Assembly: GCA_018333655.1 (NCBI GenBank)
Contig: JAGXTJ010000015.1
Coordinates: 1 to 33,149 of the forward strand
Reading direction: 5' to 3'
Source of the DNA: Bacillota bacterium
Lineage (GTDB): Bacteria; Bacillota; UBA994
Length of the DNA stretch: 33,149 nt
Position 1 is the first letter of the stretch. Each line of letters begins with the position of its first letter. Below the pieces are notes generated by a model. The model made no database searches. It saw nothing but the letters and a program-made list of their open reading frames with translations, and had not been told where the DNA came from. The position numbers and the translations under genes were made by a program. Below, in pieces: positions 579 through 5,421 of this stretch.

Positions 579-1520
579 CTAAAGGGTGATCACTAAATTA
601 TACTTATCTTTAATAATTTGCACCATGTGCTGATAATGCGTGTGATCGCCTGAAATTTTTAAAGTATACAGGCACTTTTTGAAAGATTCTAAGTGCAGTT
701 CATTGCCAAGATGATACTGAGCAGCAGCTTCTCTAAGAAATAGGAAGTGCAACATGTCTAAATGGCCCTTCCTTAACGACAATTCTATCCCTAATTGTGC
801 GTATTGAAGCGCATCGTGATGCATATCTAAGCGATGGTAATTATAGGATATATTCGCATAAGATTTAATGGCATATAAATCTTCAATTTTGTCACTGTAT
901 AAGTTGCTTTCTACAACGGTTAAGACGTGTTTGGAGATGCGTATACTGAGCTCGCAGTTTCTGAGATCACCTAAGCATGCGGCGACCACAACTAACCCTC
1001 TGATTTCGAGGGCACTGTAACGATATCGGTCAAAATTTTCGATTTGGAAATCATGAATTGACAGCCTAAGGGCGCAAATAATGTTCGTGTAAGCGGATTG
1101 AAGATCGCCTTTGTACCTCAAGCTAATAGCTAATATGAGATGATTGATTTGTTTCAATGTCCTACAATCTACCAGCTTAAGTGCATCGGCCTCACTCAAC
1201 GATACCCTAAAAGATTCATGCAGGCCTTCTATTTCGGTGAATCTGCCAAAGGCCATTAGATGATCTAGTGACTTTAAAAAATCGAAAAGCAAGCCAGATC
1301 TTTGATAGGACGCCAGAATTCTGCCAAGATCCACTTTAAACAATGAACTAAGGTGTACCAGCGTGTCATAGCGTGGTATCGAGTGGCCGTTTTCAATTTT
1401 GCGCAGTGTATCAATATTGACTCCGGTCTCTCTCGACACAATCAACTGAGAATATCCGAGTGCCACCCTTAGTCTCTTTAATTTTTTGCCAAAATTTCTG
1501 AGGTCATATGTCTCAAGCAA
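579..1520 (-). CDS. HTH (XRE) + TPR-like regulator, RRNPP/Rgg-like
   Basis: The protein has an N-terminal XRE helix-turn-helix at about residues 8-65 (GKKLKRLRVALGYSQ, then TLRKIENG) and an all-helical C-terminal part of about 240 residues in TPR-like helix pairs. That is the layout of the RRNPP regulators (Rgg, PlcR, NprR, PrgX), which bind imported peptide pheromones. I chose the TTG at 1520 because GAGGAGG lies 9 bases upstream; this gives about 313 residues, near PlcR length, while the longer frame to 1655 runs across the ribosome site and a palindrome. It is divergent from a small secreted-peptide gene and a radical SAM/ABC operon, so it probably controls them. Peptide control is inferred from architecture. 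A TPR-bearing XRE regulator without a peptide ligand remains possible. Confidence 0.8.
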   Translation of the reverse strand: MLETYDLRNFGKKLKRLRVALGYSQLIVSRETGVNIDTLRKIENGHSIPRYDTLVHLSSLFKVDLGRILASYQRSGLLFDFLKSLDHLMAFGRFTEIEGLHESFRVSLSEADALKLVDCRTLKQINHLILAISLRYKGDLQSAYTNIICALRLSIHDFQIENFDRYRYSALEIRGLVVVAACLGDLRNCELSIRISKHVLTVVESNLYSDKIEDLYAIKSYANISYNYHRLDMHHDALQYAQLGIELSLRKGHLDMLHFLFLREAAAQYHLGNELHLESFKKCLYTLKISGDHTHYQHMVQIIKDKYNLVITL

Positions 1521-1535
1521 AAAACTGCACCTCCT

Positions 1536-1557
1536 CACCCCGATTTTAATCGGGGTG
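1536..1557. promoter_or_regulatory. Perfect palindrome in the divergent intergenic region, likely operator
   Basis: Two 10-base arms, CACCCCGATT (1536-1545) and AATCGGGGTG (1548-1557), are separated by TT. The palindrome starts just upstream of the regulator's ribosome site and lies 79 bases before the GTG of the secreted peptide. Position and symmetry fit the operator of a dimeric HTH regulator acting on both divergent transcripts. As RNA it would be a short hairpin in the regulator's 5' leader. Binding is inferred. Confidence 0.5.
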
Positions 1558-1635
1558 TTTGTGAGATGGAAATAGTATATCATGTCAATAAATAAAGGGA
1601 TAAGCCATGAATTATTAATTTTTGGAGGTGAAGAG

Positions 1636-1821
1636 GTGAAAAAGATATGCTTCATGAAAAGGATAGCAAAGTTGGTGTTAACCCTAATTTTGGGCTTTAT
1701 TTTTTTAACTGGTTTTGCTGATCTTACATGTGCAGCGGATGATGATTATGTAATCCCTTGTTTGGTGGCTGTTACAAGGGGTGGATCTCCTCATCATGGT
1801 GTTGTATGCCGCTGCAAGTAA
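1636..1821 (+). CDS. Small secreted Cys-containing peptide (61 aa); pheromone or RiPP precursor candidate
   Basis: GGAGG (1624-1628) precedes GTG at 1636. A longer frame starts at the ATG at 1582 but has no ribosome site. The product has a basic N-terminus (MKKICFMKRIAK), a hydrophobic stretch at about residues 12-28 and an AxA-like signal peptidase site near residue 34 (TCA/AD). The mature part would be about 28 residues, with acidic DDD, a GGSPHH turn, and Cys at 42, 58 and 60. The gene faces the RRNPP-like regulator, as pheromone genes often do. Alternatives are the substrate of the radical SAM enzyme downstream, or an unrelated small secreted peptide. I do not recognise a family. Confidence 0.65.
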   Translation: MKKICFMKRIAKLVLTLILGFIFLTGFADLTCAADDDYVIPCLVAVTRGGSPHHGVVCRCK

Positions 1822-2050
1822 GAACCGCCTCGGTCACTACTAAGCTTGCGGCTAAGCACGGACACACGGAGCAGCAATTGTCCCTCAGGTTGATCCCCAT
1901 CCTCATACGGCCATTTTGGGGGAGCTAAAACAGTTGGCCAACGCATAGCCCCAGTAATTTGCGTGACAGGCAGGGGGGATTGCTTAGTGAATGCTTAGTT
2001 GCCGAAATAAACTGGGCTTTACACGCTTGAAGCAGAAAGGAGGTGATTTG
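1822..2050. other. Leader region between the two peptide genes, with a phased direct repeat
   Basis: No gene with a ribosome site is visible. The octamer TGCTTAGT occurs at 1981-1988 and 1992-1999, exactly 11 bp (about one helical turn) apart and 52 bp before the 32-residue peptide gene. That suits a protein-binding site on one DNA face. The region may hold the promoter of the peptide-maturase-transporter operon, but I could not place convincing -35 and -10 boxes. One frame near 1859-1945 reads protein-like for about 28 codons without a start and may be decayed coding DNA. Confidence 0.4.
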
Positions 2051-2149
2051 ATGCGTATTCGTAAGGGTAGGTTTTCTTTAACCAAAAACGAGATCGATGT
2101 CTGTGATGGTTGCCCAGGCCGAATGGTATGTGGCGGCAAAAGTCGGTAA
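2051..2149 (+). CDS. Cys-rich 32-residue peptide, probable RiPP precursor
   Basis: A strong ribosome site (AAGGAGGTG) lies 5 bases before ATG 2051. The peptide has a basic and polar front half, MRIRKGRFSLTKNEID, and a tail VCDGCPGRMVCGGKSR with Cys at 18, 21 and 27 and several Gly. Its length, its place directly upstream of a radical SAM/SPASM gene, and the perfect hairpin between the two genes are typical of precursor peptides of thioether-forming maturases (sactipeptide/ranthipeptide types). The front half would be the leader and the Cys/Gly tail the core. It matches no precursor family I know, and the modification type is not deducible from sequence. It could instead be a small regulatory peptide. 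Confidence 0.65.
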   Translation: MRIRKGRFSLTKNEIDVCDGCPGRMVCGGKSR

Positions 2150-2151
2150 AA

Positions 2152-2187
2152 CAACCGAGTGGCCAGAATCATCTGGCCACTCGGTTG
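2152..2187 (+). terminator. Perfect 15-bp hairpin between precursor and maturase; attenuator or processing site
   Basis: Arms CAACCGAGTGGCCAG (2152-2166) and CTGGCCACTCGGTTG (2173-2187) are perfectly complementary around a 6-base loop. The stem begins 2 bases after the peptide stop codon. No U-run follows, so it is more likely a partial terminator, an mRNA 3' stabiliser or a processing site than a full terminator. Such hairpins commonly keep precursor mRNA in excess over enzyme mRNA. Confidence 0.7.
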
Positions 2188-2212
2188 CACTTGAGATATT
2201 GGAGGCGCGATC

Positions 2213-3583
2213 ATGAAGCTATCAAAATTTTGTGTTATTATGGAAGCCCCCTCGAATCTTTATCCTCAAGCGCACAATATGCTGCTTATCTACAACACCC
2301 TGACCAAGGCGGCTCATCTACTCTCGAGGCCGCAGTTTGAAGGGCTATGCAACTATCTGGATGGGATTGAGGCTCAAGATGCGGGCCTAAATATCTCTGA
2401 CTTAAAAGAAGATATGATTGTTGTTGACAATAATACTGATGAGGATCTTGTTTTTGAGCACCTATACAACCAAAAGAAATTCAGGGCAGATGATCTAAAA
2501 CTTATTGTAGCCCCTACTACCAATTGCAACCTCCGTTGCTTGTACTGTTTCGAAGAGAACATAGCCAAGACAAACATGGAGGCCAATGTGGAGAAACAAA
2601 TCCCCGTATTTCTAAAAGAGAATTATTTAGAGGGTATAAGACATGCTACCGTCACTTTGCATGGAGGCGAACCCTTATTGTTCCCATCCCTGACATTCAG
2701 AATTATGGATAGCTTGAACTCCTTATTTATGGATAGGCATGTGAAATATCGGTATAATATGGTAACTAACGGCACTACCTTAAGCCGGGATAACGCGAAC
2801 AAGCTCGTAAAAAGAGGCTTGGAGTTTGTGCAAATTACCATAGACGGCTGCAAAGAGTATCATGATTTGAGGCGAATTGACGTAAATGGCAGAGGGACTT
2901 TTGATAAGATAGTTAAGAACATACAAGAAACAATAGATGTAATCCCCAACATAGCGATAAGGATTAGCGTGGACAAACATAACCACAATTTAGATCAAAT
3001 GAAAAACCTGATCGACTATTTGAGTTGCACGGGCATAAAGGACAAGTTGTCAGAAATCTATTTTTCTCCCATTGTTGAAACTACAGATTGTAACAAGCAT
3101 AGTTCGCAATATGCTTTTGGCTTTGAACATGCCAGCGAAACCCTAAATATGCTATCTGATTGGCTGGCACAACAAGGCATACGCCCGCTAGATGAATCAA
3201 ATTACTCTCCATGTTGGGCACACTCCAATAATTCAATAATAATTAATGCTGACGGGGCGTTGTACAAATGCATATCTCTAATTGGGCGAAAAAATTATTC
3301 TGTGGGGGATGTCTTCAGTGGGTTAAACATGAATTACGTGCACTTTGTCAACGTGAATAGATGGAAAGCGTGCCTAAAAGAGGGGTGCCCCTATGTTCCC
3401 ATTTGTGCCGGGTCGTGTCATTTTGATTCAGTTGTTCAATTTGACAGCATAATGCGTAGATCGTGCCGCAAGACACTCATTGAGGGACATTGGATGCATA
3501 TTTTAAAAAAGGGCATTATGGAAACATATCGCACAAAGGGGATGTCTGGTGCGGGGAATATAAATTCAGCAAAAACTCTTTAG
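2213..3583 (+). CDS. Radical SAM/SPASM peptide maturase (456 aa)
   Basis: The radical SAM cluster motif CxxxCxxC is at residues 105-112 (CNLRCLYC), followed by a GGEP motif at about 151-154. The C-terminal SPASM region has Cys at 334, 353, 387, 392, 398, 402 and 418, enough for two auxiliary [4Fe-4S] clusters. The first ~95 residues include YNTLTKAAHLL, resembling the YNTLTG segment near the N-terminus of many RiPP-modifying SPASM enzymes, where the leader is bound. Members reductively cleave SAM and form thioether or C-C crosslinks, or act as anaerobic sulfatase-type maturases. The adjacent Cys peptide and ABC exporter favour RiPP crosslinking. GGAGG (2201-2205) supports the start. The exact chemistry is unknown. 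Confidence 0.88.
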   Translation: MKLSKFCVIMEAPSNLYPQAHNMLLIYNTLTKAAHLLSRPQFEGLCNYLDGIEAQDAGLNISDLKEDMIVVDNNTDEDLVFEHLYNQKKFRADDLKLIVAPTTNCNLRCLYCFEENIAKTNMEANVEKQIPVFLKENYLEGIRHATVTLHGGEPLLFPSLTFRIMDSLNSLFMDRHVKYRYNMVTNGTTLSRDNANKLVKRGLEFVQITIDGCKEYHDLRRIDVNGRGTFDKIVKNIQETIDVIPNIAIRISVDKHNHNLDQMKNLIDYLSCTGIKDKLSEIYFSPIVETTDCNKHSSQYAFGFEHASETLNMLSDWLAQQGIRPLDESNYSPCWAHSNNSIIINADGALYKCISLIGRKNYSVGDVFSGLNMNYVHFVNVNRWKACLKEGCPYVPICAGSCHFDSVVQFDSIMRRSCRKTLIEGHWMHILKKGIMETYRTKGMSGAGNINSAKTL

Positions 3584-3596
3584 GGAGGAACCGGTC

Positions 3597-4532
3597 TTGA
3601 TATTGCTCAGAAGTGTTGCGAAGGCTTTTCGAAATCGGTCTGACATAGTTCAAGCGATCGACCACATCGACCTCAATATTGAGCCCAAGCAAATCTTTTC
3701 TCTTTTAGGCCCAAATGGAGCCGGTAAGACCACGCTGATAAAATTGCTGTGCGGTCTTATCACGCCCGACTCGGGCCAGATAATGATTAACGGGGTAGAC
3801 ATAGGGAGACAACCTCATATCGCTAAGCAACTTATAGGGGTCGTACTTGAAAGCGCAAAAAATGTGTATCAGTACCTTACGGTTAGGGAGACATTAGAAT
3901 ATTTTGGGCTGCTTAATGGCCTAGCCGGGGCCAAACTAAGCAAAAGGATATGCTACCTTACGGAGATGTTCAGTCTGCAGGAAAAAATCAGCCATAAAGT
4001 AGGGACGCTTTCAAGGGGCATGCAGCAAAAATTGGCGATAATGATTGCGATGGTGAAGGACCCTGAAATCCTTATTCTGGACGAACCGACCTTAGGCCTA
4101 GACGTAATAAGCAGCCTTAAGATTAGGGATGTCATCAAGGATTTGGCACGGGGGAAAACTATCATCTTGACTACGCACGCCTTGGAACTCGCTGCGGAGC
4201 TTTCTGATAGGATAGCTATCATTAATAAGGGGCGGATTGTGCATCATTCAACTATGCCAGAACTTGTAGCGAGTTATCAGGTGAATGAGGATTCTTACCG
4301 CATTGTGTTCAGAGCAACCAGTGCGGAAATCGAGAGCCTAAACCGCAGGGATCCCAAAGTAGAGGTTACAGAGTTGCAGGATTCTCTCTATCAAGTAAAA
4401 GCTGGTCCTGAAGCGGCGAGCTTTTTAATGCGAAACTTCAATATTATTGAGCTGGAGAAAGAAAATGCGGATTTAGAGTCGATCTTTATTGATCTGCTGC
4501 ATAAAAGTACAGCCCAAAGGAGGGATGCATAG
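3597..4532 (+). CDS. ABC transporter ATP-binding protein, peptide export candidate
   Basis: This is the ATPase subunit of an ABC-2 type exporter (CcmA/DrrA-like). Walker A is GPNGAGKTT at residues 38-46, the signature LSRGMQQ at 138-144, Walker B with catalytic Glu LILDEP near 159-164, and the switch His TTH near 194. An extra C-terminal domain of about 90 residues follows, as in antibiotic and bacteriocin exporters. The start is TTG with AGGGAGG 8 bases upstream. It begins 13 bases after the radical SAM gene and its last base overlaps the GTG of the permease (TAGTG), so the two are translationally coupled. It probably exports the modified peptide and may give self-immunity; this is inferred from context. 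Confidence 0.9.
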   Translation: MILLRSVAKAFRNRSDIVQAIDHIDLNIEPKQIFSLLGPNGAGKTTLIKLLCGLITPDSGQIMINGVDIGRQPHIAKQLIGVVLESAKNVYQYLTVRETLEYFGLLNGLAGAKLSKRICYLTEMFSLQEKISHKVGTLSRGMQQKLAIMIAMVKDPEILILDEPTLGLDVISSLKIRDVIKDLARGKTIILTTHALELAAELSDRIAIINKGRIVHHSTMPELVASYQVNEDSYRIVFRATSAEIESLNRRDPKVEVTELQDSLYQVKAGPEAASFLMRNFNIIELEKENADLESIFIDLLHKSTAQRRDA

Positions 4533-5347
4533 TGTTTGTCTCGATACTGCGCGCTGAATTTAAAAAGTTAACCGCTGACTATCGAAATTACTTCCTAAAC
4601 TACATAGTTGGCCACGCTACCCTCTTTCTTTTGGCTGTAGGGCTGTTTTCTGCGTTCGCGCACACTACCTCTCAGGCGCCTTCATCAACCCTAGCGTTCT
4701 TCTTTGCTCTGTTGTTCTGGTATTACAGCGGTGATGCCATTGGTATCACCGGGCAAATTGTTTCCGAGGAACTTATGCTGGGCACTTTCGAACAGCTTTT
4801 GCTTACCAAGGGGAGTATCAAACGTATTTTCCTAGCTCGTCTGATTGTGCAATTCATCTTTCAGTCCATGTTTGCTCTAGTGTTTTTTTCAGTCCTTGTA
4901 TCCATATTTGGTATGTGGGGCGTCTTTTTTGGGCTAGGTAATAGAGTGCTAGCCCTTTGCATAGTCTTTATTCTCACTGTACTTGGGCTGTATGGGATGG
5001 GGTTTGTCGTGGCAGGCTTATCGCTGGTCTTTAAGCAAGCGGGGGCGGTATCAAGCGTGCTAACGTATACCGTTCTGTTTTTCACGGGGAGCATAGTGAA
5101 TGTCGACAGGATCCCAGCCGTAGTAAGGCCGCTTGTTTACCTAATACCTGCTACTGCGGGGAATAGTCTTTTAAGGGCTGACATCTTGCCGGCGGAAGGC
5201 CTAGCCGCTGTAGAATTAGCAACAAACCCCATGTTTTTGTATCTTGTCGTCTTAGTTGGGTTGTGGTTATTCTTCGGTAACGGCATTTTCAATTTCTGCT
5301 TAAAAAGTGCTATGAGAAAAGGTAACTTGCATAGTTACTATTTTTAG
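4532..5347 (+). CDS. ABC-2 type permease of the peptide exporter
   Basis: The 271-residue protein is very hydrophobic, with about six membrane segments (roughly 25-45, 55-75, 105-130, 138-165, 170-195 and 225-250). This is the usual shape of ABC-2 permeases paired with DrrA/CcmA-like ATPases. A ribosome site (AAAGGAGGG) lies in the end of the ATPase gene, and the GTG start overlaps the ATPase stop. It completes the presumed exporter of the peptide operon. No separate immunity gene or leader peptidase is visible in the island. If the leader is removed, the protease must be encoded elsewhere or act outside the cell. Confidence 0.88.
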   Translation: MFVSILRAEFKKLTADYRNYFLNYIVGHATLFLLAVGLFSAFAHTTSQAPSSTLAFFFALLFWYYSGDAIGITGQIVSEELMLGTFEQLLLTKGSIKRIFLARLIVQFIFQSMFALVFFSVLVSIFGMWGVFFGLGNRVLALCIVFILTVLGLYGMGFVVAGLSLVFKQAGAVSSVLTYTVLFFTGSIVNVDRIPAVVRPLVYLIPATAGNSLLRADILPAEGLAAVELATNPMFLYLVVLVGLWLFFGNGIFNFCLKSAMRKGNLHSYYF

Positions 5348-5354
5348 CTAAACT

Positions 5355-5392
5355 CCGAGAAGGCGCGGCTCAATTGGTTGCGCCTTGCTCGG
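5355..5392. terminator. Hairpin after the exporter operon
   Basis: CCGAG-AAGGCGC (5355-5366) pairs with GCGCCTT-G-CTCGG (5380-5392), leaving one bulged base and a 13-base loop. It sits between convergent genes, 8 bases after the permease stop. There is no clean U-run on either side, so termination is likely but not certain. Confidence 0.55.
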
Positions 5393-5421
5393 GGTCTTCG
5401 TCCATAGCTTGTCTGCGACGT

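Follow-up and report, generated by a model that had tools for sequence, protein, structure and literature searches.

A probable pheromone-controlled radical SAM peptide operon and its family of predicted RRNPP-type receptors in Bacillota

The contig JAGXTJ010000015.1 of a Bacillota bacterium (GTDB lineage UBA994; GenBank assembly GCA_018333655.1), analysed here over its whole length of 33,149 nucleotides (nt) and referred to as the window, belongs to a draft genome of 2.2 Mb that is 97% complete. Near its left end lies a group of genes that encode, from left to right, a minus-strand regulator with an Xre-type helix-turn-helix (HTH), a secreted peptide of 61 amino acids (aa) divergent from it, a Cys-containing peptide of 32 aa, a radical S-adenosylmethionine (rSAM)/SPASM enzyme, an ATP-binding cassette (ABC) ATPase and an ABC-2 permease (Table 1). 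A first-pass annotation had listed these parts, all of which are present in the sequence, and had read them as a pheromone-controlled locus for a ribosomally synthesized and post-translationally modified peptide (RiPP). Comparison with related loci supports this reading through the predicted fold of the receptor, the pairing of receptors with secreted peptides, a common operator and a RiPP operon conserved together with the core of its precursor. We put the probability that the locus is a self-contained pheromone-controlled RiPP operon at about 0.83.

Table 1. Features of the locus in window coordinates (TPR, tetratricopeptide repeat; PWM, position weight matrix).
Feature	Position	Strand	Basis
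Predicted RRNPP-type receptor/regulator, HTH + TPR-like helices	579..1520	-	TTG start with AGGAGG; HTH_19 + HTH_3, predicted fold, alignment of relatives
Operator CACCCCGATTTTAATCGGGGTG, 22-bp palindrome common to the regulator family	1536..1557		Leave-one-out PWM
Candidate -10 TATCAT of the pheromone/RiPP promoter	1578..1583	+	20 nt past the operator; similar spacing in relatives
Secreted propeptide, 61 aa, probable pheromone precursor	1636..1821	+	GTG start, GGAGGTG upstream, signal-type N-terminus
RiPP precursor, 32 aa, three Cys, MRIRKGRFSLTKNEIDVCDGCPGRMVCGGKSR	2051..2149	+	Core ...CDGCPGRMVCGGKSR; counterpart in the G107 operon
Hairpin with 16-bp stem between precursor and enzyme, no U-run	2152..2187	+	Perfect inverted repeat, -33 kcal/mol
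rSAM/SPASM RiPP maturase, 456 aa	2213..3583	+	TIGR04463 224 bits, TIGR04280 217 bits, below cut-off
ABC ATPase of exporter/self-protection pump	3597..4532	+	PF00005
ABC-2 permease	4532..5347	+	PF01061
Hairpin 3' of the permease, possible transcript end	5352..5395	+	Fold, -31 kcal/mol

The regulator probably starts at TTG 1520, which has AGGAGG 9 nt upstream; the conserved part of the protein begins at about this position, and the relatives begin at the same point in the alignment. The longer listed reading frame from ATG 1655 was rejected, as it would extend across the operator into the propeptide gene. The N-terminal part matches the Xre-type HTH profiles PF12844 (HTH_19, 38.5 bits, cut-off 30.2) and PF01381 (HTH_3, 34 bits, cut-off 23), and by sequence TPRs gave a weak match only. 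An AlphaFold2 model of the regulator family, with 13 members as input, is all-helical (pLDDT 86). The top solved structures found with it by Foldseek were PlcR, ComR, Rgg2 and PrgX (TM score 0.4 to 0.65), with the PlcR-PapR complex (3u3w) as the best match (E value 1.2e-7, TM 0.58/0.65), so the predicted fold carries the helical repeats of a TPR-type peptide-binding domain. Sequence identity to the solved Rgg, ComR, PlcR and PrgX proteins is 12-15% (about 14% to Rgg2 and 15% to PlcR), and sequence placed the regulator in no characterised RRNPP subfamily. Taken together, the predicted fold and the gene pairing of the relatives support an RRNPP-type receptor with a predicted peptide-sensing function.

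Profile searches of the genome and genome-contig collections, the latter scanned with a five-row alignment because a 14-row alignment was too diverse, retrieved about 30 relatives of the regulator, including proteins of Alkaliphilus, Fusibacter and Youngiibacter; no relative turned up on plasmids. Most of them have a divergent gene for a Sec-type peptide about 90-120 nt away, and the window propeptide gene likewise starts 112-115 nt from the regulator start, so that the adjacent exported propeptide expected of an RRNPP receptor is found both here and among the relatives. Under a fixed test for such a peptide, 21 of 31 family regulators were positive, compared with 18 of 139 control genes taken from these loci; with a ribosome-binding site, the control count was 4 of 139. 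The pairing of receptor and secreted peptide exceeds chance. Sequence searches with the propeptide itself gave no convincing homologue, its relatives being recognised only by their position beside the regulator.

After the Sec-type signal, the relatives' peptides carry either an acidic-IP motif, as in AASEDIPRIYS, GENDIPRVYA and repeats of GKNDDIPRING, or an EW motif, as in DDEDIEWH and EYEYEWNG. The receptor tree has two clades (support 100/100), and the IP-type and EW-type peptides split along them without exception; the window receptor falls into the IP clade. Tandem pheromone-like repeats occur in the propeptides of L079, L077, L076, L085 and L081. In the first full-length relative found (genome G023), the divergently encoded secreted peptide contains GEEDIPRIFGIPVTPD six times in tandem. 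Propeptides that repeat the pheromone have been described for the Rap, NprR, PlcR and AimR systems (PMC9765709). In the window propeptide the candidate signal lies in ADDDYVIPCLVAV, and the mature pheromone is probably a short hydrophobic peptide within DDDYVIPCLVAV. In G023 (L049, 8180-8557 and 8653-12001), the six-repeat propeptide and the receptor are followed directly by an agr-like set (AgrB-like protein, histidine kinase and AgrD-like 39-mer), and two peptide-signalling systems thus adjoin each other at that locus.

The gap between regulator and pheromone gene contains a palindrome in nearly every family member, with the 22-bp consensus CAACCCGATTTAAATCGGGTTG. When the window was left out of the training of the PWM, its own site still ranked first in the 33 kb, at 27.6 bits against 9.8 bits for the next, and 15 of 18 loci ranked their own site first. 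The genome holds no second copy of the window site within 3 mismatches (0 expected by chance). In most family members a -10-like hexamer follows 18-20 nt past the site, which would place the centre of the palindrome near -42, the position of an activator. Between the pheromone gene and the precursor, the PWM found no second operator, and a promoter/terminator consensus scan, which performed no better than on shuffled sequence, called no clear second promoter and no promoter-like or terminator-like site on the plus strand of 1822-2050. Since neither a second operator nor a plus-strand terminator was found between them, we propose that the pheromone and RiPP genes are co-transcribed. In Fusibacter ferrireducens (L084, 8907-9832), the operator occurs in a further strong copy (8907, 21 bits) about 140-160 nt upstream of the gene for a secreted 255-aa protein with no Pfam match; this gene is probably another target of the pheromone receptor there.

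The enzyme matches PF04055 with 55 bits and carries the CxxxCxYC motif at residues 105-112 and seven SPASM cysteines at 334, 353, 387, 392, 398, 402 and 418; the 3 + 7 cysteines are invariant across 18 aligned enzymes. It matches several RiPP maturase families over nearly its full length, namely TIGR04463 (rSAM_vs_C_rich, 224 bits, cut-off 525), TIGR04280 (geopeptide, 217, cut-off 400), NF038107 (CefB, 177, cut-off 600) and TIGR04334 (Clo7bot, 139, cut-off 600), and clears no curated family cut-off. Like those maturases, it belongs to the same superfamily and has a small Cys peptide encoded nearby; unlike theirs, the window precursor has a new core. Membership among the anaerobic sulfatase maturases or the quinohemoprotein maturases, which would have spoken against the first-pass reading, was rejected at 72 bits each (cut-offs 349 and 453) versus 224 bits for TIGR04463. 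The nearest solved enzymes by sequence cover only part of the protein. Single-sequence scans of genome contigs and viral contigs gave nothing usable, a viral scan with an alignment of two enzymes gave matches at 22% only, and phage and plasmid enzymes are about 30% identical or less; a relative of the permease did not turn up on plasmids.

The search of genomes that the first-pass annotation had proposed yielded, among 398 genomes of the phylum, exactly one close relative of the enzyme, in G107 (765 bits; next 178), and its neighbourhood is an orthologous operon. The G107 locus (L090, minus strand) keeps the order precursor, hairpin, rSAM enzyme, ATPase and permease, with identities to the window of 45% for the enzyme (over 353 aa), 49% for the ATPase and 47% for the permease. 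The sole close homologue of the enzyme is thus accompanied by a small Cys peptide, whose absence from such neighbourhoods would have counted against the earlier reading. This precursor, MTRLKEGTKLSSLAIRSHALSPCGGRVICGGKSR, occupies the same place as that of the window, and both end at the stop codon with C-x-G-R-x-x-C-G-G-K-S-R, nine of the last 12 residues being identical; the conserved precursor of an rSAM RiPP operon is therefore present, in a family with two members known. Both precursors are followed by a hairpin with a 16-bp stem and a 4-nt loop, the sequences of which are unrelated between the two genomes, and the window hairpin is likely to be an mRNA 3'-end or processing element.

In G107 the pheromone and RiPP genes are apart, unlike in the window, and a 97-nt promoter block that includes the palindrome, in the diverged form GATACTTTAAAGTAT, is present in two copies, one preceding the pheromone gene and the other the RiPP precursor. 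The receptor paired with the RiPP operon belongs to the IP clade in the window genome and to the EW clade in G107, so that control module and chemistry have, on this comparison, been recombined. The divergent pheromone gene of G107 (L073, 1200-1504) apparently starts at ATT after AGGAGGAGG and reads (M)KTKIGLLSIALALLTF...EDKEYEYEWNGTGDQSF.

Receptors of this family are also found beside RiPP enzymes of several other kinds, which we report as individual observed loci. They include a CXXX-repeat maturase (L081; TIGR04115, 474 bits, cut-off 350), Clo7bot/TIGR04463-like rSAM enzymes with Cys-rich peptides (L089 and L103) and a PapB-like rSAM enzyme with an ABC transporter (L093; compare L091). In genome G069 (L092, 3929-10520), the receptor stands beside a Cys-rich precursor, SagD/SagB-type enzymes of a thiazole/oxazole-modified microcin (TOMM) cluster and an ABC exporter.

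We propose that the 61-aa propeptide would leave the cell through the Sec pathway and be processed to a short hydrophobic pheromone, which an oligopeptide permease may take back in (the genome encodes nine oligopeptide-binding SBP_bac_5 proteins) and which would then bind the TPR domain of the regulator. The loaded regulator is predicted to bind the palindrome and to activate the promoter directed towards the pheromone gene. The resulting transcript would span the pheromone gene, giving positive feedback, as well as the precursor, the rSAM/SPASM enzyme and the ABC-2 exporter, with the hairpin behind the precursor probably raising the level of precursor mRNA over that of the enzyme. The Fe-S enzyme would most likely install a thioether or another radical crosslink in the conserved core, and the ABC pair may export the product or protect the cell. 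Activation as the direction of control, the exact pheromone, its re-import, the crosslink chemistry and the role of the product are the conjectural parts of this scheme.

Several observations weigh against this interpretation. In the receptor tree the branch of the window receptor is long (1.34), and its peptide, with DDDYVIP in place of DDIP, is a loose match to the DD-IP motif. A single orthologous RiPP operon was found, in which the enzyme gene is frameshifted and the pheromone start is apparently ATT. Neither a leader peptidase nor a separate RiPP recognition element (RRE) gene was found within the operon, and a single transcript is assumed across a gap of 230 nt between pheromone gene and precursor. 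This gap could instead hold a promoter of the RiPP operon itself (within 1822-2050), in which case the regulator and its peptide would be a real pair that controls itself or distant genes and merely adjoins the operon. Most family members elsewhere are indeed not beside an orthologous RiPP operon, and loci of the G023 type adjoin an agr-like cassette without an rSAM enzyme. We regard such an arrangement as improbable, since the operator is absent elsewhere in the genome, the gap has no called plus-strand promoter-like or terminator-like site, the receptor family recurs beside several kinds of RiPP enzyme and, in G107, where the two sets of genes are apart, the operator-bearing promoter has been duplicated before the RiPP genes.

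It is also conceivable that the 61-aa peptide acts as the antimicrobial itself or as a further substrate of RiPP modification, with the HTH protein as an ordinary regulator and not its sensor, and the mature window peptide does have Cys near its C-terminus (IPCLV...VVCRCK), unlike most relatives' peptides. This is very improbable, because a divergent secreted peptide also accompanies the relatives' regulators at loci that have no rSAM enzyme nearby, the peptide motif tracks the receptor clade, the tandem motif repeats fit a pheromone and the predicted receptor fold is that of RRNPP proteins. Somewhat easier to entertain, and still unlikely, is an rSAM system that makes a cofactor-like or intracellular peptide next to an ABC pair that is simply an immunity or drug-efflux pump: the ATPase scores best with DrrA-type efflux families, and the core is short and has few cysteines. 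However, the exporter genes follow directly and overlap, they are kept together with precursor and enzyme in G107, and the relatives of the enzyme are RiPP maturases of Cys peptides. A pheromone-controlled operon for an exported RiPP therefore remains our preferred interpretation, within which the coupled ABC exporter of the first-pass annotation stands as a coupled pair and is now specified as of the ABC-2 type.

The locus has a GC content of 42-45% across 1-5 kb, compared with about 52-58% across the following 8 kb, in line with the earlier remark that it is richer in A+T than its surroundings. The repeat noted before it corresponds to a 126-bp stretch (81-206) with two further genome copies (on contigs C53 and C1) at 99% identity, a repeat element, and the hairpin noted after it to the strong fold 3' of the permease, which an intrinsic-terminator scan did not call. 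Base composition and the sparse, patchy distribution make horizontal gain of the locus plausible. Further peptide loci were seen in the same genome: contig C8 (L023, 1-4348) carries a second HTH-TPR regulator, of another family, the Cys peptides MYYGGNNNCRHCPRR... and MKILREAVRMEQIEQPSEWDCAWFGLCCADGFCCKGITP, a broken rSAM gene and an ABC exporter, and on contig C36 (L022, 6297-8459) a 48-aa peptide with CCSSSLC precedes two serial rSAM copies that are truncated or interrupted by stops. In G008 (L024, 7337-15107), three clustered rSAM/SPASM enzymes each follow a distinct Cys mini-peptide, of 31, 31 and 43 aa.

Control of radical-SAM RiPPs by Rgg/SHP (short hydrophobic peptide) systems is established in streptococci for tryglysin (PdrA-wgk), streptide and streptosactin (PMC13361665, PMC8092268). 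The likeness to these systems that was drawn at first holds for the gene arrangement, with the receptor divergent from the pheromone gene and with precursor, rSAM enzyme and transporter adjacent. It does not extend to the pheromone: a strict SHP is a short hydrophobic propeptide with no Sec signal that is exported by PptAB, whereas the propeptide here has a Sec-type N-terminus and a long tail, and several relatives have tandem repeats. Also unlike the streptococcal systems are the low identity of the window receptor to the solved receptors, the non-streptococcal hosts, the new 22-bp operator and the other precursor and enzyme families. In the tryglysin system the shp and wgkA promoters share a motif near -35 (PMC8092268), and the pheromone and RiPP promoters of G107 likewise have a motif in common.

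An HTH-TPR receptor beside a Sec propeptide is typical of RRNPP systems in general and of the clostridial QssR/QssP pairs, which share one operon, unlike the divergent genes of the window (PMC7206700, PMC7376267). PlcR/PapR of the Bacillus cereus group resembles the window system in receptor fold and in its exported propeptide. The operator of PlcR, the PlcR box, is a palindrome like that of the window, but PlcR controls virulence factors, not a RiPP operon. In the Bacillales systems the receptor gene is followed immediately by that of the pheromone (PMC9765709), again unlike the divergent order found here. An RRNPP receptor next to biosynthetic gene clusters (BGCs) is a published idea: the RRNPP_detector survey counted 196 BGCs beside RRNPP systems, nine of them in Clostridiaceae, Peptoniphilaceae and Tissierellaceae together, and its main text names the linked BGCs by class only (PMC10075063). 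A full-text search for RRNPP, radical SAM and RiPP returned, besides passing mentions, streptococcal work only, and in the literature found the experimental record of pheromone-switched radical-SAM peptides is likewise confined to streptococci. As far as could be checked against these sources, the receptor branch, the operator, the pheromones and the precursor are not described, with the proviso that the supplementary tables of the survey lay outside the comparison and may list some of the receptors. The principle of a pheromone-controlled radical-SAM RiPP is thus already known, and the comparison supports the RRNPP branch and the precursor family as new.

Altogether, we consider it likely that these receptors form an uncharacterised RRNPP branch across anaerobic Bacillota, with one operator, two pheromone classes that track the receptor and repeated capture of RiPP operons of differing chemistry (several rSAM types and a TOMM), the same operon being joined to receptors of both the IP and the EW type, each in a different genome. 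Such a branch would provide a second set of pheromone-switched radical-SAM peptides, in non-streptococcal Bacillota, with a readable operator and candidate pheromones. Silent RiPP clusters of uncultured bacteria may thereby become addressable, as both the inducing peptide and the responding promoter could be predicted from sequence, and the locus family would make it possible to examine how a single signalling module is put to use in controlling different chemistries.

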